64,000 nt of DNA from Oceanobacter kriegii DSM 6294 (GTDB lineage Bacteria; Pseudomonadota; Gammaproteobacteria; Pseudomonadales; Oceanobacteraceae), in assembly GCF_000422845.1 (NCBI RefSeq), contig NZ_AUGV01000016.1:1-64000 (forward strand). Reading direction: 5' to 3'. The notes beneath the pieces are model-generated. The model did not search any database. It saw only the letters and a program-made list of their open reading frames with translations, and was not told where the DNA came from. The position numbers and the translations under genes are program-made. Shown piece after piece: positions 9,427 to 22,830 of the stretch; position 1 is the stretch's first letter; each line of letters opens with the position of its first letter.

Positions 9427-10302
9427 ATGATGGACCCAGATTACCTGCCGTTTCATGCCAACCCAAGCAAGCCAGAATTCAAGGCTCCTGCTGGCGCGGT
9501 TGATGCCCACTGCCACGTATTTGGTCCAGCGGATCAATTCCCGTACCACCCGAAGCGTAAATACACCCCTTGTGATGCCTCCAAGCAGCAGCTGTTCGAC
9601 CTGCGCGATCACCTGGGCTTTTCCCGCAATGTCATCGTACAGGCGTCCTGTCACGGTACCGACAACGCGGCTCTGATAGACGCGCTGGAAACCGCCGGTG
9701 AACTGGCTCGCGGTATCGCTGTGGTTGATCCTGCGATCACGGTTGAAGAACTGGAAGCGATGGACAAAGCCGGTGTGCGCGGCGTTCGTTTCAACTTCGT
9801 TAAGCGTCTGGTCGACTCCACGCCAAAAGAAGTGTTCCTGTCGATTGCTGAAAAGATCAAGCCGCTGGGCTGGCACATTGTGGTTTACTTCGAAGCCCCG
9901 GACCTGGCCGAACTGATCCCGTTCCTGAACGAACTGGACACCACCATTGTGGTTGACCACATGGGCCGTCCTGACGTTGCCAACGGTGTGGATCACGAAG
10001 ACTTCCAGCGCTTCATCAAGCTGATGGAAGACAACGAGAAAATCTGGGTGAAAACCACCTGTCCAGAGCGTCTGACCCTGACTCCGCCAGACTACAGCGA
10101 CGTGGTGCCATTCATGAAGACCCTGGTCGAGAAATTCCCGGACCGTTGTCTGTGGGGCACCGACTGGCCGCACCCGAACATGAAGTCTCACACTCCGGAT
10201 GACGGTAAACTGGTCGACGTGATTCCACAGATTGCCGTGACCGAAGAGCTGCAGCAGAAGTTGTTGGTGGATAATCCAATGCGTTTGTACTGGGCGCGCT
10301 GA
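9427..10302 (+). CDS. ligI: 2-pyrone-4,6-dicarboxylate hydrolase
   Basis: 291 aa amidohydrolase-superfamily lactonase that opens 2-pyrone-4,6-dicarboxylate to 4-oxalomesaconate. GAVDAHCHVFGP puts the H-x-H at residues 28 and 30. HPKRKYTP, VIVQASCHGTDN, GVRGVRFNFVK and CLWGTDWPHPN are LigI landmarks, and the family works without bound metal. Two ATG codons lie in tandem at 9427 and 9430 after AAGAGA; either may start. A 123-bp spacer separates it from ligU. A heptamer array follows it before ligA. Confidence 0.93.
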   Translation: MMDPDYLPFHANPSKPEFKAPAGAVDAHCHVFGPADQFPYHPKRKYTPCDASKQQLFDLRDHLGFSRNVIVQASCHGTDNAALIDALETAGELARGIAVVDPAITVEELEAMDKAGVRGVRFNFVKRLVDSTPKEVFLSIAEKIKPLGWHIVVYFEAPDLAELIPFLNELDTTIVVDHMGRPDVANGVDHEDFQRFIKLMEDNEKIWVKTTCPERLTLTPPDYSDVVPFMKTLVEKFPDRCLWGTDWPHPNMKSHTPDDGKLVDVIPQIAVTEELQQKLLVDNPMRLYWAR

Positions 10303-10310
10303 GAACGCTC

Positions 10311-10466
10311 GTCTGACGTCTGAAGCTGGAAGTCTGACGCGATGAAGGCCTCCAGCCCTGATGCGATAAGAAATATCGCGGGGGCTGCTTGCCTCAGGTG
10401 TAATCCATTACCGCCTGGCAAATCACATTAGCGTCCGACATCTGACTTCAGACGTCCGACCTGAAC
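10311..10466. repeat. Inverted heptamer array inside the lig operon
   Basis: Units GTCTGAC/GTCTGAA/GCTGGAA/GTCTGAC at 10311-10338 oppose CGTCCGA/CATCTGA/CTTCAGA/CGTCCGA/CCTGAAC at 10432-10466. The arms are roughly complementary and enclose 93 bases. This fills the ligI-ligA gap, so the mRNA there could fold into a large stem that affects ligAB message level. Confidence 0.65.
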
Positions 10467-10480
10467 CCGAGGGTAAACGA

Positions 10481-10849
10481 ATGACCGATTACAAGATGAA
10501 AGCTGTTGAAGGGACGTACCACTTCGATGGCGAAGCCGCGACCAAGGGCTTCCATTTCAACAAGATGTGTTACTCCTTCAACAGCGAAGAAAACCGTCAG
10601 GCGTTTCGTGACGATGCCGAAGCCTACATGACCAAATACAAGCTGACTGAAGAGCAAAAGCAGGCCGTGCGTGATCACGACATCAACCGCATGCTGGAGC
10701 TGGGTGGCAGTATCTACTACATGGCCAAATTCGCAGGCATTTTCGGTTGGAATATGCAGGTGATTGGCGGCATGCAATCTGGCCGCAGCACTGAAGAATT
10801 CATCGCATACCTGGAAAGTCAGGGCAGGGGGAAAACAACCAATGGCTAA
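10481..10849 (+). CDS. ligA: Protocatechuate 4,5-dioxygenase alpha subunit
   Basis: 122 aa helical small subunit of the type II extradiol dioxygenase that cleaves protocatechuate to 4-carboxy-2-hydroxymuconate-6-semialdehyde. It matches LigA through GTYHFDGEAATKGFHFNKMC, LGGSIYYMAKFAGIFGWNMQ and a C-terminal GGMQSGRSTEEF. The subunit caps the active site of LigB. GAGGG lies before the ATG. Its stop overlaps the ligB start, the usual LigAB arrangement. Confidence 0.95.
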   Translation: MTDYKMKAVEGTYHFDGEAATKGFHFNKMCYSFNSEENRQAFRDDAEAYMTKYKLTEEQKQAVRDHDINRMLELGGSIYYMAKFAGIFGWNMQVIGGMQSGRSTEEFIAYLESQGRGKTTNG

Positions 10850-11693
10850 GATCATCGGTGGTATTACCACCTCTCACATTCCGGCCATCGGCGTTGCCAT
10901 GGACAAGGGCCTTGAAGAAACCGATTACTTCAAGGATCTGTTTGCCATCTACCCGCCTATTCGTGACTGGTTGACCGAAGAAAAGCCGGACATCGCGGTG
11001 TTGTTCTACAACGACCACGGTCTGGAAATGTGGCTCGACAAAAAGCCGACGTTCGCGATTGGTGCAGCGCCTGAGTACGAAAACGCCGACGAAGGTTGGG
11101 GCATCAAGCCGATTCCACCAGTAACCGGTGAAACCGAGCTGAGCTGGCACATCGTTAACCACCTGATCGAAAACGACTTCGACCCGACCGTGTGTCAGGA
11201 CATCAAAGTCGACCACGGTGCGACGGTACCACTGACGCTGTTGTGGCCAAACTTCACCTACCAGGGCATCAAGGTGATTCCGGTTTCCATCAACTGTGAA
11301 CGTCACCCAATGCCAAAACCAAGCCGCAGCTACGCGTTTGGTAAAGCCATTGGTGAAGCCATTCGCTGCTGGAATAAAGACCAGAAAGTGGTGGTTCTGG
11401 GTACTGGCGGCTTGTCTCACCAGCTGGACGGTCAGCGTGCGGGCATTCTGAACGCCGACTTCGACAACTGGTGTATGGATAAAATGGTTACCGACCCGGA
11501 AGCCATCACCCAGTACAGCAACGTTGACCTGATCGAAAAAGGCGGCGCCCAGATGGTCGAAATCGCCATGTGGCTGGCCATGCGTGGCTGTATCGAAGGC
11601 CCGGTGGAAGAGCGCCTGCGTAACTACGTCTCGCCGATCTCCAACACCGCCGTTGGTGTGCAGCTGCTGATTCCGGAAAACGAACAGGGCTGA
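10842..11693 (+). CDS. ligB: Protocatechuate 4,5-dioxygenase beta subunit
   Basis: 283 aa catalytic subunit holding the non-haem Fe(II). The iron-binding His12 is in GGITTSHIPAIG and the second His (59) in VLFYNDHGLEMW; the later KVVVLGTGGLSHQLDGQRAG segment carries the catalytic-region His. The frame extends upstream, but the ATG at 10842 inside the ligA stop (ATGGCTAA), with AGGGGG ahead of it, matches the family start. It is the last gene of the operon; a strong terminator follows. Confidence 0.95.
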   Translation: MAKIIGGITTSHIPAIGVAMDKGLEETDYFKDLFAIYPPIRDWLTEEKPDIAVLFYNDHGLEMWLDKKPTFAIGAAPEYENADEGWGIKPIPPVTGETELSWHIVNHLIENDFDPTVCQDIKVDHGATVPLTLLWPNFTYQGIKVIPVSINCERHPMPKPSRSYAFGKAIGEAIRCWNKDQKVVVLGTGGLSHQLDGQRAGILNADFDNWCMDKMVTDPEAITQYSNVDLIEKGGAQMVEIAMWLAMRGCIEGPVEERLRNYVSPISNTAVGVQLLIPENEQG

Positions 11694-12197: not shown

Positions 12198-14111
12198 TTA
12201 GTCTTTTCCGAGCAACGCCAGAACCTTGTCTTTCAAGGCATCGGCGCTGGCATGCTCCGGAGCCACTGGTTCACCGACGCTGAGTGATACTTTTGACCAG
12301 AAGCGTTTCGGCCGGGTAGTGAGCGCGTGGCCATCCTTGTGGGAGAAAAAGCTACCCCATAAGCCATCCAGCGCCATGGGCACAACAGGCACCGGTGTCT
12401 CTTCAATGATGCGTTCTATGCCTTTCTTGAAGGTGTCGACTTCGCCGTTGGTGGTCAGCTTGCCTTCCGGGAAAATACACACCAGATTGCCGGCTTCCAG
12501 CTCGGCCTTGATGCGTTTGAAGGCGTTGTCGTACATGGCACGGTCGGCTCTTGGTGAGCAGATAGGGATGGTTTTTGCCAGTCTGAAGAAGTATTTCAGC
12601 AGCGGCATTTCAGCGATGGCTTTGGCCATCACAAACCGAATCGGGCGTTGGCAGGTGCCTGCAATCAGCAGGGCGTCGACGTAGCTGACGTGGTTGCACA
12701 CCAGTACCGCCGGGCCTTCTTCCGGAATGTGTTGCAAGCCGTTATCTCGTACCCGGTACAGGGTATGGCTGAGCATCCAGATGCCAAATCGCAACACAAA
12801 CTCCGGTACCTGGCTGTATACATAGGCCGCGACCACCAGATTCATAATGGCCAGTACCAGAAAGTAGTCGCCAATCGACAGTTTCATCACGGCCAGCAGC
12901 ACAATGCCCAGCGCCGCGCTGCCGACCATAAACAGCGCGTTCATCACGTTGTTGGCGGCAATGATCTGGGCGCGTTTTTTCTCGTCGCTGCGTTGTTGAA
13001 TCAAGGCTTGCAGCGGCACCACAAACAAGCCGCCAAAGGCACTTACGAGAGCAATATCAGCCATCAAACGCCAGTGGTCACTGTTGCTGATAAAGGCCCA
13101 GGCGCTGATGCCGTCTGGAACATTCAGGCCCGAAATGGCAAACCAGAGGTCGATGCCAAATACGCTCATGCCAATGGAGCCGATGGGCACAATGCCCAGC
13201 TCAACCTTGTGGTTTGATAGCCTTTCACACAGCAAGGAACCCGTCGCGACGCCAAGGGAAAACAACGTCAGCAAAACCGTTACCAACTCGCTGGAGCCGC
13301 CCAGCACATCGCGGGCAAAATTCGGGAATTGGGTCAGGTAACTGGCACCCATAAACCAGAACCAGCTGATGGCCACAATCGACAGAAATACCCCGCGGTC
13401 TTCCCGTGCCTTGGCGATGGTGCTGAGCACGGCGGTGAAAGGGTTCCAGTTGACGTTCAGTTCCGGGTCATTGGCGGCGGCAGCGGGAATAAAGCGGCTG
13501 CTGAATACGCCCAACAGGGCAAAACCCACGATGCCTGCGGCTATCCATGCCGGTGCATCTTGCAAACCAAACAATACGCCTGCGCAAATGGTGCCGCCCA
13601 AAATGGCGATGAAGGTGCCCATTTCGACCAGTGCGTTGCCGCCCACCAGTTCGTCCTTATGCAGATGCTGGGGCAGCAGGGCAAACTTTACCGGGCCGAA
13701 CAGGGCCGACTGTAATCCCATCAGAAACAACAGCGCCATCAGAATCCAGCCGCTGCTGCCCTCAAACAGCGGTAGCAGCATGGCCAGGGCGGCCAGGCAC
13801 ATAATCGCCAGTTCCAGCAGTTTGGCCCATCGCATCAGCTGCGATTTTTCCAGTTTGTCCGCCAGCTGCCCGGAAATAGGCGAGAACAAAAAGAACGGCA
13901 GAATAAAAATACCTGCGGCCAGGTTGGTCAACAACGCGCTGTCTTCGGCGCTGGCGATTCCGCCAAACGCAATCATCAACAGCAAGGCGTTTTTGTACAG
14001 GTTGTCGTTGAATGCCCCCAAGGCCTGAGTCAGGAAATAGGGTAAAAAACGGCGCTTGGTAAGCAAGGAAAATTGGCTGTGAGGCTTGCTGGGCTGCGAG
14101 TTCGTGGGCAT
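12198..14111 (-). CDS. MFS transporter fused to 1-acylglycerol-phosphate acyltransferase
   Basis: 637 aa. Residues 1 to about 420 are an MFS permease like LplT, with many hydrophobic helices and ALGAFNDNLYKNALLLMIAFGG in the first helix. Residues about 440-637 are a PlsC-type acyltransferase: the HX4D catalytic motif in VCNHVSYVDALLI and the substrate motif IFPEGKLTTNGEV. Together these should flip lysophospholipid inward and reacylate it at the inner membrane, a role split between LplT and Aas in Escherichia coli. No AMP-binding acyl-ACP synthetase part is present, so the acyl donor must come from elsewhere. Confidence 0.88.
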   Translation of the reverse strand: MPTNSQPSKPHSQFSLLTKRRFLPYFLTQALGAFNDNLYKNALLLMIAFGGIASAEDSALLTNLAAGIFILPFFLFSPISGQLADKLEKSQLMRWAKLLELAIMCLAALAMLLPLFEGSSGWILMALLFLMGLQSALFGPVKFALLPQHLHKDELVGGNALVEMGTFIAILGGTICAGVLFGLQDAPAWIAAGIVGFALLGVFSSRFIPAAAANDPELNVNWNPFTAVLSTIAKAREDRGVFLSIVAISWFWFMGASYLTQFPNFARDVLGGSSELVTVLLTLFSLGVATGSLLCERLSNHKVELGIVPIGSIGMSVFGIDLWFAISGLNVPDGISAWAFISNSDHWRLMADIALVSAFGGLFVVPLQALIQQRSDEKKRAQIIAANNVMNALFMVGSAALGIVLLAVMKLSIGDYFLVLAIMNLVVAAYVYSQVPEFVLRFGIWMLSHTLYRVRDNGLQHIPEEGPAVLVCNHVSYVDALLIAGTCQRPIRFVMAKAIAEMPLLKYFFRLAKTIPICSPRADRAMYDNAFKRIKAELEAGNLVCIFPEGKLTTNGEVDTFKKGIERIIEETPVPVVPMALDGLWGSFFSHKDGHALTTRPKRFWSKVSLSVGEPVAPEHASADALKDKVLALLGKD

Positions 14112-14307
14112 TGGCGGTCCTTGCTGGCGCAGTTGCCGCGATAACGAAGCGGCCTGCTGAGTCGACGTTAAAAACGAGGGTTATGACAACCAATAGTGCC
14201 GGAAGTGGCAGCGGATGTCGTTGAACGAGTGGGCAGAAAGTGAGCCTGGATGTGAAGGGGAGGACGGACAATTATTCATACGGTGAATAGGCACTACAGC
14301 CTTCAAT

Positions 14308-14350
14308 TTGCAAATAGATACTTGCAATCCTTTTATTCCTGTTTAGGATG
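14308..14350 (+). promoter_or_regulatory. Candidate promoter for the DAHP synthase leader
   Basis: Two TTGCAA hexamers (14308-14313 and 14322-14327) can serve as -35 boxes with TTTTAT at 14331 or TAGGAT at 14345-14350 as -10 boxes at 16-17 spacing. Each -10 matches four of six consensus bases. Placement just ahead of the leader ORF fits, but this is weak evidence. Confidence 0.35.
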
Positions 14351-14372
14351 AAAACATCACTTAAACGCATAC

Positions 14373-14549
14373 ATGGACAAACACATGACTGCACTGACCA
14401 CCAACAACCAGACTCTGGCAACTGCGATCGCCGCAGCGGCAGACGTTCGTCTGGCGGGTGTGAAAGCGGTTGCACAGGTTGAGTCTGCGTCTGTGGCCTA
14501 TTGGTATTTTGGTTATGGCTATTTTAGCCAGGAGCCAAGCTGCCTGTAG
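14373..14549 (+). CDS. Aromatic-rich leader peptide 1 of DAHP synthase
   Basis: 58 codons from the ATG at 14373, or 54 from the in-frame ATG at 14385. Near its end lies a dense run of aromatic codons, AYWYFGYGYF (codons at 14499-14525: Tyr, Trp, Tyr, Phe, Gly, Tyr, Gly, Tyr, Phe), then SQEPSCL and a TAG stop. Ribosome stalling there would report shortage of Tyr, Phe or Trp. The stop is followed directly by alternating RNA stems and a strong terminator, and then by the DAHP synthase gene. No strong ribosome site is seen at either ATG, which is the weakest point of the call. Confidence 0.7.
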   Translation: MDKHMTALTTNNQTLATAIAAAADVRLAGVKAVAQVESASVAYWYFGYGYFSQEPSCL

Positions 14550-14634
14550 TGTGAATCTTACACCCGGCAGTTTGGCTTCAAGCCAGACTGCCACGGAAAA
14601 CCCCGGTTGGCAGTCTGCCAACCGGGGTTTTTTT
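14533..14634 (+). promoter_or_regulatory. Transcription attenuator (alternating RNA stems and intrinsic terminator)
   Basis: Five segments are visible. Segment 1, AGCCAAGCTGCC (14533-14544), pairs with segment 2, GGCAGTTTGGCT (14566-14577). Segment 2 pairs instead with segment 3, AGCCAGACTGCC (14581-14592). Segment 3 pairs instead with segment 4, GGCAGTCTG (14609-14617). Segment 4 is the core of the terminator AACCCCGGTTGGCA / TGCCAACCGGGGTT (14599-14612 / 14616-14629), followed by a T-run. A ribosome stalled at the aromatic codons leaves segment 1 free, giving 1:2 and 3:4 and read-through. A ribosome at the stop codon covers segment 1, giving 2:3 and the terminator. Confidence 0.85.
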
Positions 14635-14679
14635 ATGGGCGCAATAAAGTCCAACAGCATTGGAAACGGAGAGGTTGTG

Positions 14680-14763
14680 ATGAGCACCTTGCAACAGAAA
14701 CAGCAGCATTACTGGCGATGGCGATTTAGCTGCGGTGACGTTCGGGCCTGTTATTGGGCCTGA
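14680..14763 (+). CDS. Aromatic-rich leader peptide 2 of DAHP synthase
   Basis: 27 codons with a strong ribosome site (GGAGAGG, 6 bases before ATG). The peptide is rich in aromatic residues: QQHYWRWRFSCG in the middle and CYWA at the end, five of 27 residues being Tyr or Trp and one Phe. It lies after the terminator of the first leader and 83 bases before the DAHP synthase start. No second T-tailed terminator follows, so any role would be in translation, in rho-dependent termination, or as the leader of a second promoter. Composition and ribosome site make chance unlikely but not excluded. Confidence 0.55.
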   Translation: MSTLQQKQQHYWRWRFSCGDVRACYWA

Positions 14764-14846
14764 CGGCACCGATAACCCAGGCACAGAAAAACAAAGCGAA
14801 CGACACAAACACTTCAGTTGCAGAAAAATTTAAAAGGTACTTAGCC

Positions 14847-15947
14847 ATGAACCCGAACGCTCAAAACAGCCAGATCAACAACAGCCAGAACATCCCGATG
14901 CCTACGACCATCACCAGTCGTGTGGCCAACAGCAACGACCCGGCCATTCAGCCGATTGAATCGCCAGCGGCCATCAAGCAGCGCTTGGCGTTGCCGGAAA
15001 AACACCGGGTGCAGGTTGAAAGCCAGCGCCAGCAGATTCGCAATATTCTCAATGGCGAAGACAGTCGTTTGTTGGTGATTACCGGTCCGTGCTCGATTCA
15101 CGATGAAGAGGCCGCCCTCGACTACGGCCAGCGACTGGTGGCCCTGAACGAACAGCTTGGTGACCGTTTGCTGATTGTGATGCGTGCCTACGTTGAAAAG
15201 CCACGTACCAACATCGGCTGGAAAGGTCTCGCCTACGATCCGGATCGTAATGGCAAAGGCGACATGGCTCAGGGCATTGAGCGCAGCCGCAAAGTGATGC
15301 TGGAGCTGATTCGTATGGGCCTGCCGTTGGCGACCGAAGCACTGAACCCGGCGGTTATGATGTACCTGGACGACTTGATCAGCTGGACGGCTATTGGCGC
15401 CCGTACCGCAGAAAGCCAGATTCACCGTGAAATGGTCAGCCATCTGGGCATGCCAACCGGCATCAAAAATGGCACCGACGGTTCCATGACCACCGCCGTA
15501 AACGCCATGGTTGCAGCGCGTCACAGCCACCATACCCTGGGCATGGACGGCAACGGCCAAATGGCCATGCTGACCACCCCGGGCAACCCGGACACCCATA
15601 TTGTTCTGCGTGGCGGCAACAACCTGACCAACTACGATGAACACAGCATCGCCGATGCTCAAAGCCAACTGCACGATGCCGACTGTCATGTCGGTGTGAT
15701 GGTGGATTGCAGCCACGCCAACGCCTGCAAACAGCACCGCCGCCAGGTGCCGATCGCCCTCAACGTGGTTGAGCAGCGTGTTGCGGGTAATCGCAACATC
15801 ATGGGCGTGATGCTGGAAAGCTTCATTAATGAAGGCAACCAGAAAATGGGCGGCAAGTTGGTCTACGGCCAATCCATTACCGATCCGTGCATCGGCTGGG
15901 AGCAAACCGAAAACCTGCTGAAAGCCATGCACGCCAAATTGGTGTAA
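14847..15947 (+). CDS. 3-deoxy-7-phosphoheptulonate (DAHP) synthase, type I
   Basis: 366 aa. Condenses phosphoenolpyruvate and erythrose 4-phosphate, the entry step to chorismate and aromatic amino acids. ITGPCSIHDEEAALDYG carries the metal-binding Cys82. VEKPRTNIGWKGL, GARTAESQIHREM, GIKNGTDGS and VDCSHANACKQHRRQ are the AroF/AroG/AroH landmarks. Details such as RNILNGEDSRLLVI and YGQSITDPCIGWE look closest to the AroH branch, but the isozyme's feedback specificity cannot be read reliably, so no symbol is given. The ATG at 14847 has AAAAGG upstream; an in-frame TTG at 14754 overlaps leader peptide 2 and is not preferred. Expression is very likely controlled by the leader attenuator. Confidence 0.93.
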   Translation: MNPNAQNSQINNSQNIPMPTTITSRVANSNDPAIQPIESPAAIKQRLALPEKHRVQVESQRQQIRNILNGEDSRLLVITGPCSIHDEEAALDYGQRLVALNEQLGDRLLIVMRAYVEKPRTNIGWKGLAYDPDRNGKGDMAQGIERSRKVMLELIRMGLPLATEALNPAVMMYLDDLISWTAIGARTAESQIHREMVSHLGMPTGIKNGTDGSMTTAVNAMVAARHSHHTLGMDGNGQMAMLTTPGNPDTHIVLRGGNNLTNYDEHSIADAQSQLHDADCHVGVMVDCSHANACKQHRRQVPIALNVVEQRVAGNRNIMGVMLESFINEGNQKMGGKLVYGQSITDPCIGWEQTENLLKAMHAKLV

Positions 15948-17639: not shown

Positions 17640-18194
17640 TCAGCCATTGTCGGCGACAGGGGAGGCGCCAGCAAGTCCTTCTTTATGGGCAAAAAACAAC
17701 GCCAGTCGGGCGACTTTGGTTACCGCTCGAACGGACAGGGTCGCGCCGGTGACGCCATCAATATGGTCGGACAGTTGCTGGTCGTCGGTCAGCGTCAGGC
17801 CTTTGAACTGATCGGTGAAGAAAGGGTATTTCACTTCCCAGCCACGGGACTCCCGGAAAGCCAGAATGTTCACACTGCGGATTTGGTCGGCATCCAGAAT
17901 CACACCAATGGTAATGGGGCGTTCTTTACCAATTTCTTCCAGAATCCATGCCGATTGGTTGCCCTGGTACCAGTAGCGTACCCGCAGCCCCGCGTAAGGA
18001 TGGCCTAGAATATCAGCCACTTGTGGCTTGATGTCTTTCTTCAGCCACAGGGTTTTGACTTTCGGCTGCTGCTCACCGAACGCCTGTTTCAGAAAATCCG
18101 CCTGGCTCAGGTATTCCTCGGCCTTTGCCGAGGTGGCCCCCATAACCATTAATAACGAAAAACTGGCCGTTAGCAGGTACTTACTCAGCTTCAC
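17640..18194 (-). CDS. Exported FMN-binding domain protein
   Basis: About 184 aa from the GTG at 18194 (MKLSKYLLTASFSLL), or 190 from an ATG at 18212; the GTG start gives a cleaner signal peptide ending TSAKA. The C-terminal part carries DGVTGATLSVRAV, the FMN-attachment motif in which ApbE transfers FMN to the threonine, as in RnfG, NqrC and NosR-like proteins. The gene overlaps the end of the upstream cytochrome gene (GTG lies inside its last codons), so the two are coupled. Its place between a PepSY membrane protein and a diheme cytochrome suggests a role passing electrons in the periplasm. Confidence 0.85.
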   Translation of the reverse strand: MKLSKYLLTASFSLLMVMGATSAKAEEYLSQADFLKQAFGEQQPKVKTLWLKKDIKPQVADILGHPYAGLRVRYWYQGNQSAWILEEIGKERPITIGVILDADQIRSVNILAFRESRGWEVKYPFFTDQFKGLTLTDDQQLSDHIDGVTGATLSVRAVTKVARLALFFAHKEGLAGASPVADNG

Positions 18195-19449
18195 AGGTTT
18201 CCCACTCCTCATCGGAAATCAAATGCTCATAGCGGGCGTCGGTCAGCGTCATCAGGAAGCAAACCATGGCTTCGATCTCGTCGGATTCGCCACTGCCATC
18301 GCTGTCTGTGGTGCGGAACAGTCGACCATCCAGCATTTCTGCTTCGGCAAAGTTCTCGGCCACTTCCGGTTCTGCCCATTCAACGCCGGTTTCCGGGTTA
18401 ATGGTAAAGGCGGAGCCAGTTTTGAAATGGTCGTAGAATTTCAGCACCGTTGCCAGTTCATTAAACACGCCATTGTGCATGTACGGTTCTGTGACGGCGA
18501 CGTTGCGCAGTGTCGGGGTTTTGAATTTGCCCGTTTGTGTCGCGTCGTCGCCCACGGTGTCGTTGTTGCCTTGCAAGCCGGTGTCGATAAATTCATCGCC
18601 AAGGCCATTGGCTGTGCGAACGGCGGTATTGACCGGTACACCAATGTTGTGGAATTCGTAGCCGGTGAAGGTTTCGGTGCTGCTGCCCTGACGGTTTAGC
18701 TGGTGGCAGGTGGCACAGTTGGTGAATTGCTGTGAAAAGAACAGCGCTTTGCCAGAAGCCACTTTGGAGATAACGCCGTAGTTGTAATAGTTCGGGTCGT
18801 CGCTATCCAGCAGGGAGCGGTCGTATTTGGAGTCGAACGGAGCGAACTCATCGGTGTTTTCAAACGCGGCAATGGCGTTTGTCATGGCGCTGTATGCGGT
18901 GTCGGTGTCGTTGAACACATCGCTGCCATACAGGCGTTCGAAGGCTTCTACGTAGTCCTGATTTTCTAGCAGACGGTCGACCACGCTGGCTCTGTCGGCC
19001 ATGCCCATTTCAATAGGATTCAGTGGTGGCCCACCGGCCTGTGCCGCTAAACCTGCAGCACGGCCATCGTGGAATTGGCCACCCATCCAGCCAGAGTAGT
19101 CGTCTTGTTGGCTATTGAAGCGGTTTCGACTGCCATTTTGAAAGGCCGGTGCAAACATGGCGTAAAGCGCAGAAGGCGCGTTGCGGTCGCCCAGTGATAC
19201 CCCGTCGTCGCCCGTCGATACGGCGACGGTAGAGCCATCGGTATTGGTAGCGCTGTCGGTGAAGGCTTTGTCGGGATCATGGCAGGTAGCGCAGGATTGT
19301 GTGCGGTTCATCGACAGATTCACGTCGCTGAACAGATTTTCCCCAAGAGCTTCCTTGCTGCTAAAAGCTGGCTCATCGCTGCCTGAAGACCCTGATCCCC
19401 CGCAAGCTGCCAGCATCATGGCTAGACTGATTACCGCTAATTTTTTCAC
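18181..19449 (-). CDS. Diheme cytochrome c peroxidase/MauG-family lipoprotein
   Basis: 422 aa. Lipoprotein signal ending MMLAACGGSG. Two heme c sites: SCATCHDPDKAF near residue 55 and NCATCHQLN near residue 245, in the positions of the two domains of the CcpA/MauG family. GTPTLRNVAVTEPYMHNGVF-like wording appears as KTPTLRNVAVTEPYMHNG, the usual family block. It would sit on the periplasmic side of a membrane. First gene of the left arm that runs divergently from imelysin, with a Fur-box-like site in the shared promoter. Confidence 0.9.
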   Translation of the reverse strand: MKKLAVISLAMMLAACGGSGSSGSDEPAFSSKEALGENLFSDVNLSMNRTQSCATCHDPDKAFTDSATNTDGSTVAVSTGDDGVSLGDRNAPSALYAMFAPAFQNGSRNRFNSQQDDYSGWMGGQFHDGRAAGLAAQAGGPPLNPIEMGMADRASVVDRLLENQDYVEAFERLYGSDVFNDTDTAYSAMTNAIAAFENTDEFAPFDSKYDRSLLDSDDPNYYNYGVISKVASGKALFFSQQFTNCATCHQLNRQGSSTETFTGYEFHNIGVPVNTAVRTANGLGDEFIDTGLQGNNDTVGDDATQTGKFKTPTLRNVAVTEPYMHNGVFNELATVLKFYDHFKTGSAFTINPETGVEWAEPEVAENFAEAEMLDGRLFRTTDSDGSGESDEIEAMVCFLMTLTDARYEHLISDEEWETCEAE

Positions 19450-19537
19450 GTTGCTTTCCGCTATTTGATTCAGGTCGCTCCGCCCTTAGCGGGCTGGCTG
19501 TCGTGTATAGCATTGTATAAGAGTTTAAAAATTCTAC

Positions 19538-19556
19538 CATGACCATAGTCATTATC
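19538..19556. promoter_or_regulatory. Fur-box-like site in the divergent promoter
   Basis: CATGACCATAGTCATTATC agrees with the 19-base Fur consensus at 14 positions, including the whole right half TCATTATC. It lies 89 bases before the diheme cytochrome start and 158 bases before imelysin, so Fur with iron could silence both directions. Confidence 0.6.
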
Positions 19557-19713
19557 TACTGTAATTAAAGATACGAGTATGTTTGTAAACCATTCGCATT
19601 AAGCCTATGATCTGGCCAACTCGTGAACAGTTAATCTCACGGGAATGTATAAAAATTCAGACCAGGTCACCGGATGTTGTGACCCTAGACCCCATGAATG
19701 GAGAGTTTTGCAC

Positions 19714-21204
19714 ATGAAATTGGCCCACTTGGCAGCCGCTGTTGCCACTGCTTCCCTGTTGACTGCCTGTGGCGGTAGTTCTTCTTCCAGTTCTGATGAT
19801 GTTGCGGTTATTCAGGTAGACAAGGTTTCCCAGGTTCTGGAAACCAACGCCGATATCGCTTACGCCGCCTATTCAGATGCCGTAACGACTGCCGTTGCAC
19901 TGCAAACTGCTCTGCAAACTTTCCGTGAAAACCCAACCGAAACCAACTTCGTTGCTGCCAAAGAAGCCTGGCTGGTGGCTCGTGAACCATATGGTCAAAC
20001 TGAGGTTTACCGTTTCCGTAACAGCCCGATTGATTCCACCGACTACAGCTCTGAAGACGGTCCGGAAGGCGATATCAATGCATGGCCTCTGGGTGAAGCC
20101 CTGATCGACTACGTGTCTGTAAACGACACCGATTTTGGCACGGACCAAGTGGGTGTTACCGCTAACATGGCCGGCATCAACGACAATGGTGCGCTGACAG
20201 CGGAAGATGCGGCTGCAGATAACAGCAACAACATTATCGGCGACACCTCAATCACCATTGATGCAGACCTGCTGTCCAACACCGCCACTGCTGAAGACGA
20301 GCACGACGTCATTGCGGGTTACCACGCGATCGAATTTTTGCTGTGGGGTCAGGATCTGAACGATTCTGCTGAAGTAACTGACGGCACCGATCGTGAATAC
20401 GCCGTTAAGACCGAAGGTGCTATGAACTACGCCGAAGGCGGTGACCGTCCACTGTCTGACCTGGCTGAGGGCTACAGCTCCGAGTCCCCATACGACAGCA
20501 CCAGCCTGAGCCAGCGTCGTCACAAGTACCTGGAAGTGGCTGTTCAGAAGCTGATCGACGACCTGACCGACGTACGCGATGGCTGGGCTGAAGGCGCTGA
20601 CTACCGCACTGCATTCACCACCATTTCTACCGAAGACGAAGCCAAGCAGAAGCTGGCTGAAATCCTGACCGGTATGGGTACCCTGTCTGAAGGTGAGCTG
20701 GCCGGTGAGCGTATGCAGATTGCATTCTCTGCCAATTCTCAGGAAGACGAGCACTCCTGCTTCTCCGACAACACCCACCGTGACATCTGGCTGAACGCCG
20801 AAGGTGTTTCCAACAGCTACTATGGTGAGTACGCCGGTTACGACAGCGATCTGGATGGTACCGATGACGTAACCACCAATGCTGTTTCTGGCTACGGTAT
20901 CGATGACTACCTGGCTGAAGTAGAGCTGTCTGCACTGGCAACCCAGATGGAAACCGCTCTGACTGCGACCGCTACGGCCTACACTGAAATCGATACACTG
21001 GCGCGTGCTGGTACTCCGTTCGATGTTCAAATCCAGGACGAGAATCAAACGACAGATGCGGCTGCCTACGCGACGATTGTTGCTCTGAACGCCCAGTCTG
21101 GCGTGATTGCTGACGTTGCCGAAGCACTGGAAATTGATGCTGATACCGTGGTTGACGTTGATGCATCCGAGTGTGATACCACTGACCCTCTGACCGAGTG
21201 CTAA
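19714..21204 (+). CDS. Imelysin-family (peptidase M75/IrpA-like) iron-regulated lipoprotein
   Basis: About 496 aa from the ATG at 19714, chosen for its ribosome site (GGAGAG) and the lipoprotein signal MKLAHLAAAVATASLLTACGG; the frame is open from 19645. Imelysins are helical-bundle periplasmic or outer-membrane proteins related to EfeO and induced by low iron. The GxHxxE motif is present in AGYHAIEFLLWGQDL. SQRRHKYLEVAVQKLIDDL and FTTISTEDEAKQKLAEILTG match the second half of the fold. Two pairs of Cys near the C-terminus are unusual extras. It heads the cluster imelysin - DUF1111 - DUF1513 - imelysin - porin, the arrangement seen around Pseudomonas icmP. Confidence 0.88.
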   Translation: MKLAHLAAAVATASLLTACGGSSSSSSDDVAVIQVDKVSQVLETNADIAYAAYSDAVTTAVALQTALQTFRENPTETNFVAAKEAWLVAREPYGQTEVYRFRNSPIDSTDYSSEDGPEGDINAWPLGEALIDYVSVNDTDFGTDQVGVTANMAGINDNGALTAEDAAADNSNNIIGDTSITIDADLLSNTATAEDEHDVIAGYHAIEFLLWGQDLNDSAEVTDGTDREYAVKTEGAMNYAEGGDRPLSDLAEGYSSESPYDSTSLSQRRHKYLEVAVQKLIDDLTDVRDGWAEGADYRTAFTTISTEDEAKQKLAEILTGMGTLSEGELAGERMQIAFSANSQEDEHSCFSDNTHRDIWLNAEGVSNSYYGEYAGYDSDLDGTDDVTTNAVSGYGIDDYLAEVELSALATQMETALTATATAYTEIDTLARAGTPFDVQIQDENQTTDAAAYATIVALNAQSGVIADVAEALEIDADTVVDVDASECDTTDPLTEC

Positions 21205-21222
21205 TGGTATGAAACACGCATC

Positions 21223-21243
21223 AGGCCTGATTTCAGGCCTTTT
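21223..21243 (+). terminator. Weak terminator/attenuating hairpin after imelysin
   Basis: AGGCCTGA-TT-TCAGGCCT followed by TTT. A stem of 8 pairs in the 72-bp gap could reduce read-through into the diheme gene, leaving imelysin the most abundant product. Confidence 0.5.
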
Positions 21244-21276
21244 GGCGCTGCAACAGCAGAAGCCGGGGGCGGCACG

Positions 21277-22830
21277 ATGAGTCAGCCCCTGACTTCGCAA
21301 AAGCCGGGCATGTCCCGGCTTTTTGCCGTTCTGACGATGCTGTTGTTGGCGTTGCTGGCCGGTGTGTACTGTGCCGGTCTCAAGTTGTCGGCAGGGCCGT
21401 TTGTTGTGACGCCTGTCAGTGAAACTGAACGCTATCCCGGTGGTAGCGCGACGGTGTCGATTTCGCCTTTTGCCAGCATGGAAAAGGTGGTGCCCAATCT
21501 GCCAGAGCGCGAAAAACCGCATTTCTATTCCGGTCGTGCATTGGCGCGGCAGCCATGGGTAAAAGCGCCCACCATCACCGACGCCCGTGATGGCTTGGGG
21601 CCAATTTACAACGCTCGCGGCTGTTTGGCGTGCCATATCAAAGGTGGCAAGAGTTTGTTGCCGACGCGCCCGGATGCGCCTCTGTTTGGACCACTGGTCC
21701 GAATGAGCGTGGTGCTGGACGATGCGTCCGCCATGCAAACGGCTGCGCAATCGGTGGATGGGGTGATTCCTGATCCGGTGTACGGCGATCAACTGCAAAC
21801 CCAATCCATTGCATTGCTGCACCAACTGCATAAAGCCACGCCACTGGAAATAGCCGAATCGGGCGATGTGCCGCCTGAAGCCTACGCCTATCTGGATTGG
21901 GAAGCCTCTTCCTACACCTATCCGGATGGTCATGTTGTTGAGTTGCGTAAACCGCTGTTGAATCTGAAGCACGCGGCCTACGGTGACTTCGATCCGAACA
22001 CCCGTTTCAGCTTGCGAAACGCACCTGCTATTCATGGCATGGGACTGTTGGAGCGCATTCCCCAACAGGCACTGGCGGCGCTGGCTGACCCGGATGACCT
22101 GAATGGCGATGGCATTTCGGGTCGACAAAATCAGGTTTGGGACTCCCGCACTCAGTCGTTTCAGCCAGGTCGCTTTGGTCACAAGGCCAATCGCCCGAAC
22201 CTGGATATGATCGTCGGCTCGGCGTTTGCCAATGACATTGGCATCAGCAATCCGATGTTCCCAAACCAGCCGTGCAGCCCGCAGCAGACGCTGTGCAACG
22301 CGCAAAGAAATGGAAATAATCGTCAGGGTTTTGAATTACCTGATAACCTTTTGCGCCTGGTCACGAATTTCAATCGTAATCTGGGTGTTCCGATCCGTCG
22401 TGACATGGACAATAGCGATGTAAAAGCAGGCCGTAGCCTGTTCTATCAGGCTGGCTGTCATCAGTGCCATCAGCCGTCGTTTGTCACCGAGGATCGGGTG
22501 GCTGGTATTGACGAGCCACAATCTCATCTCGGTGGCCAAACCATTTGGCCATACACCGACTTGTTGCTGCACGATATGGGGCCTGCGTTGGCCGATGGCC
22601 GTCCGGACTTTGCCGCCAGCGGCTCCGAGTGGCGTACACCGCCGCTGTGGGGGGCAGGCTTGCTGCAACAGGTGAATGGCGCGGCAGCGTACTTGCACGA
22701 TGGCCGTGCCCGAACGCTGGAGGAAGCCATCCTCTGGCACGGTGGCGAAGCCGCTGCAGCACAGGGCAGGTTCGTGAACCTGTCACAGCAGCAGCGTCAG
22801 CAATTACTGAAATTTGTCGGCTCGCTCTGA
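21277..22830 (+). CDS. Diheme thiol oxidoreductase-like protein (DUF1111)
   Basis: 517 aa. N-terminal membrane anchor/signal (LFAVLTMLLLALLAGVYCAG), then two heme c motifs: RGCLACHIKGGKS near residue 117 and CHQCHQPSFVTED near residue 395. The blocks FSLRNAPAIHGMGLLERIP, DGISGRQNQVWD, FGHKANRPNL and YLHDGRARTLEEAILWHGGEA are those of the DUF1111 family found beside imelysin genes. Its likely task is electron transfer in the periplasm during iron handling; the reaction is not established. Confidence 0.87.
   Translation: MSQPLTSQKPGMSRLFAVLTMLLLALLAGVYCAGLKLSAGPFVVTPVSETERYPGGSATVSISPFASMEKVVPNLPEREKPHFYSGRALARQPWVKAPTITDARDGLGPIYNARGCLACHIKGGKSLLPTRPDAPLFGPLVRMSVVLDDASAMQTAAQSVDGVIPDPVYGDQLQTQSIALLHQLHKATPLEIAESGDVPPEAYAYLDWEASSYTYPDGHVVELRKPLLNLKHAAYGDFDPNTRFSLRNAPAIHGMGLLERIPQQALAALADPDDLNGDGISGRQNQVWDSRTQSFQPGRFGHKANRPNLDMIVGSAFANDIGISNPMFPNQPCSPQQTLCNAQRNGNNRQGFELPDNLLRLVTNFNRNLGVPIRRDMDNSDVKAGRSLFYQAGCHQCHQPSFVTEDRVAGIDEPQSHLGGQTIWPYTDLLLHDMGPALADGRPDFAASGSEWRTPPLWGAGLLQQVNGAAAYLHDGRARTLEEAILWHGGEAAAAQGRFVNLSQQQRQQLLKFVGSL

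Follow-up and report, generated by a model that had tools for sequence, protein, structure and literature searches.

The window examined here, a 64,000-nucleotide stretch of the Oceanobacter kriegii genome, carries a class I DAHP synthase gene of the aroFGH type on its plus strand at 14847–15947 (NF009395, 483.6 bits; TIGR00034, 434.8 bits; PF00793, 250.4 bits). A divergent MFS-acyltransferase gene occupies 12198–14111 on the minus strand, and the gap between the two genes holds a predicted attenuator, 0.2 kb upstream of the DAHP synthase gene, with all of its parts on the plus strand. The attenuator opens with a leader ORF at 14373–14549, of 58 codons from the ATG at 14373 or 54 from the ATG at 14385, which translates as MDKHMTAL...ESASVAYWYFGYGYFSQEPSCL followed by the stop codon and has the C-terminal end AYWYFGYGYFSQEPSCL. 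Its aromatic codon run YWYFGYGYF, read from the sequence at 14499–14525, is the proposed stall site. Folding, shuffle tests and covariation delimited segment 1 (14531–14544), segment 2 (14566–14579, a partner of 1 or of 3) and segment 3 (14581–14593, a partner of 2 or of 4), and segment 4 (14608–14617), which pairs with segment 3 or forms part of the terminator hairpin, was delimited by folding and covariation. Sequence and folding revealed an intrinsic terminator with a T tail (segments 4:5) at 14595–14634; its hairpin spans 14595–14633 with 18 pairs and the core AACCCCGGTTGGCA/TGCCAACCGGGGTT, and seven T residues occupy 14628–14634. A simple terminator scan of the window did not list it, probably because the stem uses part of the T tail.

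Between the terminator and the DAHP synthase gene sits a second short ORF, uORF2, at 14680–14763 (MSTLQQKQQHYWRWRFSCGDVRACYWA, then stop), which was recognized from the sequence and from a peptide pattern in relatives and had been missed by the earlier sequence-only reading of this DNA. It has a good Shine–Dalgarno sequence, GGAGAGG at 14668–14674, and comparison of loci identified the conserved string GGCGATTTAGC within it at 14720–14730. By eye, an A-rich stretch, ACAGAAAAACAAAGCGAACGACACAAACAC, was seen at 14764–14846 ahead of the DAHP synthase start. Farther upstream of the attenuator, an amidohydrolase and a LigB-type aromatic ring-opening dioxygenase (Pfam) at 9427–11693 suggest a putative aromatic degradation cluster. 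Inspection by eye of the span 18181–22830 also showed ORFs that contain c-type haem motifs and begin like lipoproteins, at 18181–19449 (minus), 19645–21204 (plus) and 21277–22830 (plus).

Three alternating stems were obtained by folding of the window: 1:2 (14531–14544 with 14566–14579, 14 pairs), 2:3 (14566–14577 with 14581–14592, 12 pairs) and 3:4 (14584–14593 with 14608–14617, 10 pairs). With 200 shuffles per segment, p was 0.00 for each of them. A leader ORF with aromatic codons, followed by alternating stems and a T-tailed terminator, had been proposed from the letters alone, and the sequence, folding and shuffles (p 0.00) all bore this out. In the family of the window, hereafter f1, the merging of identical leaders reduced 28 loci to 27, and pairing energy reached the 5% point of the shuffles or lower in 23/27 loci for 1:2 and in 26/27 for both 2:3 and 3:4. 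Over all groups, the same test covered 81 distinct loci, with two of the four f39 loci (L127 and L136) missing, and was passed by 70/81 for 1:2, 59/81 for 2:3 and 41/81 for 3:4. Stem 3:4 passed in 7/18 loci of f20 and in just 2/19 loci of the Pseudomonas-type family f21, so the test did not demonstrate the antiterminator pairing in f21.

Covariation was evaluated on alignment A1, which contains 27 f1 sequences aligned by sequence with no structure fit. For 3:4, standard pairs filled 87.0% of cells, and none of 500 shuffles reached either this percentage or the covariation score; when the partners were slid by 1 to 3 columns, pairing fell to 14–46%. The 2:3 stem plus terminator was 84.4% paired, with its covariation score reached by 0/500 shuffles, and 1:2 was 71.7% paired (27/500 shuffles), with its score reached by 1/500. 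Related sequences can beat such shuffles without structure, and the counts least inflated by relatedness, those of both-side changes, were less clear: 5/10 pairs for 3:4 (37/500 shuffles as high), 9/30 for 2:3 plus terminator (61/500) and 5/14 for 1:2 (280/500). Further pair types on A1 showed no excess over shuffles for any of the three. Because kinship alone can exceed shuffles, we rate the covariation support as good in the case of 3:4, fair in that of 2:3 and weak in that of 1:2, for which the direct pairing test gives the better support. The seven-base core of 3:4 occurs as GACTGCC with GGCAGTC, AGCTGCC with GGCAGCT, and GACTGCT with AGCAGTT; at its second pair, 24 of the 32 loci tabulated have A-T and 8 have G-C. 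Folding, shuffles and covariation together revealed a mutually exclusive antiterminator and intrinsic terminator in the window and in f1.

The f1 sample was drawn by a protein search, which identified the DAHP synthase in 28/42 family genomes, with E of 1e-120 or lower. A leader ORF and a CCCCG...CGGGG-T terminator lay upstream of the gene at 28/28 of these loci, upholding the proposed link to DAHP synthase. The same held for 9/9 named records tested (L003–L010 and L040), among them Oceanobacter mangrovi (L003), two other Oceanobacter (L004, L040), Thalassolituus marinus (L008) and Marinobacter persicus (L010). By contrast, the genome of the window has another DAHP synthase, 46% identical to the first, and no such leader was found in the 650 nt upstream of it by the same test, the best ORF there having 3 aromatic codons.

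The sequence-only reading had called for a covariance search in relatives. Our covariance model of the attenuator, R1, matched at E 0.01 in 86/390 genomes of the order, many of the matches being weak, and at E 1e-8 or better it gave 28 places in 28 genomes of four families (f1, f7, f20 and f39). Among the R1 loci, 22/22 of L106–L127 adjoin a DAHP synthase and L128 does not; 11/20 of the weak R1 places fetched lay by a DAHP synthase and 9/20 did not. Of these 28 genomes, 17 belong to f20, which resembles Marinobacter persicus (L010) in both leader and gene; the fetched loci that follow are taken from the R1 matches. A search of the class at E 1e-5 matched 1/369 genomes, the window's own; R1 misses P15-type members at that cut, and therefore this search does not show absence elsewhere. 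Far from a one-off, the element is more widespread than had been thought: Marinobacter carries it, and Rfam P15 of Pseudomonas-type genomes occupies the same place and has a similar kind of leader. In a tree of DAHP synthases, the second DAHP synthase of the window's genome and four f39 loci stood apart from all rows of f1, f7, f20, f21, f37 and f43 on a branch of length 1.23 with full support, the root being placed by midpoint only. Because of this separation, the DAHP synthases of these six families are probably orthologues. Three f39 loci with the other DAHP synthase type (L126, L136 and L138) were also seen to have aromatic-rich leader ORFs, ending ..LGYFWLGYFYFIDR, ..LGYYYFRDF and ..AAYTYGYAYVS before the stop, plus terminators, perhaps through separate origin or an exchange of leaders.

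Mixed Tyr, Phe and Trp codons, as had been noted in the window, are a general property of these leaders. In the protein-based f1 sample, the last 22 codons included 7 to 9 aromatic ones, with Y, F and W each present in 28/28 leaders. The run itself varied in composition (YWYFGYGYF, FNWWFYGYYF, YFWWYGFGYF, YWCFTEFFWSYF, YWYSAVFYFGYF). In a wider, mixed set of 74 loci, 46 of which had entered by RNA score or RNA search, at least four aromatic codons were found in the last 22 at 72/74 loci, with F, W and Y all present in 71/72; L166 and L167 yielded nothing by script, and a leader is visible in both. Leader codons at 27 loci favored U-ending forms, with TAT 75/TAC 6 and TTT 68/TTC 15; the DAHP synthase genes matched to them, from 28 loci, had TAT 34/TAC 145 and TTT 3/TTC 26. 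According to a passage in PMC4046918, translation is mostly slower at NNU than at NNC codons. Ahead of the aromatic run, 284 synonymous and 338 non-synonymous changes were counted, versus 111 and 464 in the +1 frame; this enrichment of synonymous changes points to a codon-position signal in relatives.

Folding was also modeled with a ribosome whose footprint was taken as 12 nt starting at the first A-site base, the remaining free RNA being folded. When the ribosome stood at the stop codon and the RNA extended to segment 3, the probability of 2:3 exceeded 0.8 in 27/27 f1 loci. When the ribosome occupied the first aromatic codon instead, the probability of 2:3 was below 0.2 in 10/27 loci and had a median of 0.58, which rose to 0.99 once the sequence between the last aromatic codon and the stop had been shuffled; in five loci (G006, G025, G023, G001 and G039), 2:3 stayed at 0.89 or higher on every aromatic codon. 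When the RNA extended to segment 4, the mean 3:4 probability was above 0.8 in 23/27 f1 loci with the ribosome on the aromatic run, and at the stop codon 3:4 was below 0.5 in 19/27 and at least 0.5 in 8/27. The mean on the run exceeded the value at the stop codon in 27/27 loci, and in the window the switch between states falls at the last aromatic codon or just past it. At loci without a full switch in equilibrium folding, kinetics may decide. By a looser measure, the pairing of the terminator 5' arm with upstream RNA was greater in the stalled than in the stop state at 73/73 distinct loci, and by at least two pairs at 57 (L078, L081, L082, L084, L166 and L199 were not parsed). Shuffling of segment 1 left most of this pairing in place (f1 median 9.97 versus 10.90 pairs; 290/1185 shuffles as high), and the real stall pairing exceeded the mean shuffle in 72/79. 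Untranslated RNA of the window, taken from about 30 codons before the stop, adopted the read-through form with P(3:4)=1.00, and free RNA of five family members (G020, G007, G006, G025 and G021) had 2:3 at 0.96 or higher. What the analysis itself demonstrates is the set of parts, how far they are conserved, pairing that exceeds shuffles, and the match between ribosome position and switching.

We consider it highly probable that the element is a his-like, ribosome-mediated transcription attenuator with mixed aromatic codons, which would couple DAHP synthase jointly to the charging of tRNA-Tyr, tRNA-Phe and tRNA-Trp. A ribosome stalled on the aromatic run would leave segment 1 free, so that 1:2 could form and release segment 3; segment 3 would then pair with segment 4, which supplies the terminator's 5' arm and loop, allowing RNA polymerase to read through. 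A ribosome at the stop codon would mask segment 1, its front edge lying near 14559, between segments 1 and 2; 2:3 would then form, segment 4 would be available to the terminator and transcription would stop. This switching logic had already been put forward by the sequence-only reading, and it is now supported by the conservation of the element, by the pairing and covariation tests and by folding in the presence of a modeled ribosome. We infer that the leader is translated, that termination takes place and that the switch responds to aromatic supply.

A different role of the leader peptide was considered. In a nascent-chain arrest switch, the conserved end ..YFSQEPG. or ..GYWFS.. would halt the ribosome near the stop when free aromatic amino acids are abundant, masking segment 1. 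Such an arrest would work in the same manner as that of TnaC, with the opposite outcome. Most Oceanobacter-, Marinobacter- and Pseudomonas-type leaders continue with F-S after the aromatic run, which exceeds what codon stalling requires, and TTTAGC is found again in the uORF2 of the window and of many other loci. However, the residues past F-S vary along with segment 1 (SQEPGCL, SFTLGRT, SRRRV, SPGVPGGRVT), in keeping with RNA pairing; F-S is missing in L098, L147 and L168; and the bias towards U-ending codons fits codon stalling, which makes arrest improbable.

Codon stalling on a leader peptide decides termination in the trp and pheA attenuators of enterobacteria as well, with one amino acid and one antiterminator. 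The predicted attenuator of the window would share this codon stalling, with three amino acids and an extra alternating stem. The contrast with trp drawn by the earlier reading stands, but the extra stem is not unprecedented, as the layout is that of the his attenuator, B:C and D:E against E:F (outlined in PMC4046918). In the his attenuator of Salmonella and E. coli, as described there, stalling leads to stems B:C and D:E, which block the terminator E:F. Likewise, the window has a leader peptide with codons for the pathway product, and its 1:2, 3:4 and 4:5 correspond to B:C, D:E and E:F; folding and pairing indicated two stems on stalling, the second of which blocks the terminator. The window differs in mixing Tyr, Phe and Trp codons and in controlling one gene. 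It has no A segment, and the his A:B stem, which imposes termination without translation, has no counterpart in a free RNA with P(3:4)=1.00.

Scanned in full against Rfam at gathering scores, the window gave no match. A lax scan of 14250–14900 returned 23 matches, all below cut-off, the best E-value belonging to F6 sRNA on the terminator alone; all except P15, which covers leader and terminator, were dropped. Positions 14498–14628 align with positions 1–119 of P15, the whole of RF00627, at 23.9 bits against a cut-off of 70, and the window thus falls short of this family in score at full length. The same place in f21 scored 87 to 105 bits (four f21 loci among eight scanned). Searched over 244 genomes of the order, RF00627 matched in 25 at E 0.01, 11 of them over the cut-off; the genome of the window matched only at another place, C11:11756–11853. 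In a protein-based sample of f21, which avoids selection by RNA score, 19 of 30 genomes had a DAHP synthase at E 1e-120. A leader ORF (..GYFFYGYWFSQRRA before the stop, and similar) plus terminator was found by script at 18/19 of these loci, with the remaining one, L193, recognized by eye and having a short T tail, and P15 was over the cut-off at 17/19. P15 and the attenuator of the window thus lie at the same locus, ahead of a DAHP synthase of the same branch, and they also share the kind of leader ORF, which in P15 ends ..GYWFS.., and the order of stem 2:3 and then terminator; they differ in that f21 leaders have a Shine–Dalgarno site and that 3:4 passes in only 2/19 of them. We infer that f21 is Pseudomonas-like because of P15 itself and because of PrrF RNA in L196. 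This PrrF RNA (RF00444, 126.3 bits) lies at 1281–1429 of L196, in the same stretch as the P15–DAHP synthase unit. What looks like the same switch in Pseudomonas would have been filed as the small RNA P15. Below the P15 cut-off and lacking the his A:B feature, the attenuator of the window is assigned to neither type, although it would work like his.

P15 has been counted among earlier-detected sRNAs in a passage of PMC2375449, and Rfam files it as a gene, sRNA. Its name would thus fit a trans-acting small RNA product whose link to DAHP synthase is incidental. We regard this as very unlikely, since all 20 RF00627 matches fetched (11 over the cut-off) share a stretch with a DAHP synthase, a mixed-aromatic leader ORF is present at 19/19 DAHP synthases of the protein-based f21 sample, and a cis element has already been suspected for P15 in a passage of PMC2527527. 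A leader that binds a metabolite or a protein, with no role for the ORF, draws on the strength of stem 2:3 and the terminator by themselves and on a synteny-based remark in PMC2527527 that P15 may be a riboswitch, but it leaves the aromatic codons, reading frame, codon choice and ribosome-edge fit unexplained, finds no Rfam family at cut-off in the window, and is the least credible of the alternatives. A search of mainly openly accessible literature found no paper assigning an attenuator role to P15, and the portions covered of PMC8297930 and PMC2965389 hold nothing on this gene under P15 or aro/heptonate terms.

The missing strong ribosome site, raised earlier as a weak point of the attenuator, is a real feature of the window: no Shine–Dalgarno sequence precedes the ATG at 14373 or that at 14385. 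In relatives, surveyed without L090, L096, L158, L159 and L160, a Shine–Dalgarno-like site ahead of the leader was present in 19/19 f21, 0/18 f20 and 0/26 f1 loci. With the leader ATG picked by a simple rule, the best −35/−10 pair ended 6–7 nt before the leader AUG in 18/18 f20 loci, which are close relatives and not independent cases. It ended 6–8 nt before the AUG in 17/26 f1 loci, 15 of these with at least 8 of 12 letters, and lay 22–26 nt before it in 18/19 f21 loci. As shuffled upstream stretches sometimes score as high (0 to 7 of 50 in f20, 0 to 14 of 50 in f1), the promoter case rests on the fixed distance, not on score. A −10 box 6–8 nt before the AUG suggests a leaderless start, and transcripts of f20 and much of f1 therefore probably begin at the leader AUG. 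The window departs from this pattern, as does most of its genus: its −10-like TAGGAT (14344–14349) ends 23 nt before the ATG at 14373 and 35 nt before that at 14385, and would place the transcription start near 14356. Together with the −35-like TTGCAA (14322–14327, 16-nt spacer), it matches 8 of 12 consensus letters, and a simple scan of the window listed no sigma-70 site at 9 of 12. The pair also occurs in L072, L074 and L075, and the candidate is weak, with 7/50 shuffles of the window's stretch scoring as high. In relatives, a leaderless start or a Shine–Dalgarno site is the likely answer to the missing ribosome site.

By peptide pattern, something similar to uORF2 was found at 36 of the loci parsed, and CGATTT, read as Arg-Phe in the uORF2 frame, was present in 35/36 (the window and 34 other loci, L094 being the odd one out). 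CGATTTA occurred in 34 and TGGCGATTT in 24 of these loci. Across 71/74 loci (L114, L166 and L167 were not parsed), the CGATTT counts by family were 17/28 in f1, 0/2 in f7, 2/17 in f20, 9/9 in f21, 4/4 in f37, 3/7 in f43 and 0/4 in f39, and uORF2 was present in 18/19 of the protein-based f21 sample. CGA accounts for 31 of 602 Arg codons in f1 DAHP synthases. Because the residue after Arg-Phe varies (S, T, N, I, R, K, Y), the constraint looks as if it acts on nucleotides or codons. A codon-position test of uORF2 gave no coding signal (28 synonymous and 62 non-synonymous changes; 34 and 69 in the +1 frame). RNAalifold gave no consensus structure after CGATTT over 18 f21 loci (energy 0) and weak hairpins in two f1 groups (−6.35 and −9.82). 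A frameshift from CGATTTA into DAHP synthase was rejected, as that frame is open for 402 codons, about 36 of them before the start, reaching to about 14739, short of CGATTT at 14722. A complement of CGATTTA near the DAHP synthase start was seen by eye in L087, not systematically, and this idea was dropped.

An exact 14-letter uORF2 pattern was found in 6/9 genomes searched, once each, at 14720–14733 of the window in G000 and adjoining leader places in G019, G103, G162, G063 and G121. Matches with one mismatch were scattered across genomes; exact and one-mismatch matches together roughly equaled those of the reversed pattern in G000, G019, G121 and G228 and outnumbered them 2- to 5-fold in the remaining five genomes. 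By eye, the f21 uORF2 end CGAACAC..AGATAG seems conserved too. We tentatively propose, as a possibility well short of even, a two-stage DAHP synthase leader in the order of Pseudomonas, Oceanobacter and Marinobacter. It would comprise a his-type attenuator reading all three aromatic amino acids, with the mRNA starting at the leader AUG in many lineages and with P15 as its catalogued sRNA in Pseudomonas; then, on read-through only, uORF2 with its near-invariant CGAUUU would control translation or Rho-dependent termination by an undescribed mechanism.

Attenuation ahead of DAHP synthase genes has been predicted or hypothesized before, in gammaproteobacteria as well, a point on which the earlier reading needs correction: putative attenuators ahead of Vibrio aroA-tyrA are noted in PMC1173090, and predicted regulatory RNAs ahead of Shewanella aroF and aroH in PMC2659441, which also cites a hypothesized tyr-tRNA attenuator of E. 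coli aroF-tyrA. Attenuation has likewise been predicted for the Acholeplasma aroF leader uORFC-13-1 (PMC8632094) and for the Corynebacterium glutamicum aroF leader with Phe-Tyr-Phe (PMC4046766). The Acholeplasma, Corynebacterium, Vibrio and Shewanella leaders share with the window predicted attenuation of DAHP synthase and, where the leader is described, aromatic codons. They differ, as far as the cited passages describe them, in having one to three aromatic codons or none and no his-type stems described. His-like stems with mixed Y/F/W codons before DAHP synthase would be a novel version of ribosome-mediated attenuation.

Aromatic amino acid synthesis begins with DAHP synthase, and through this switch the enzyme would probably be made only when tyrosine, phenylalanine or tryptophan is short. 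In enterobacteria, the textbook control of DAHP synthase is by TyrR and TrpR. If the proposed mechanism is true, one RNA would sum three tRNA pools at the entry gene across a large group, Pseudomonas among them. It would also give a role to the unexplained Rfam family P15, the terminated transcript having been counted as a small RNA. In Pseudomonas putida, it may provide a ready-made sensor for aromatic overproduction.
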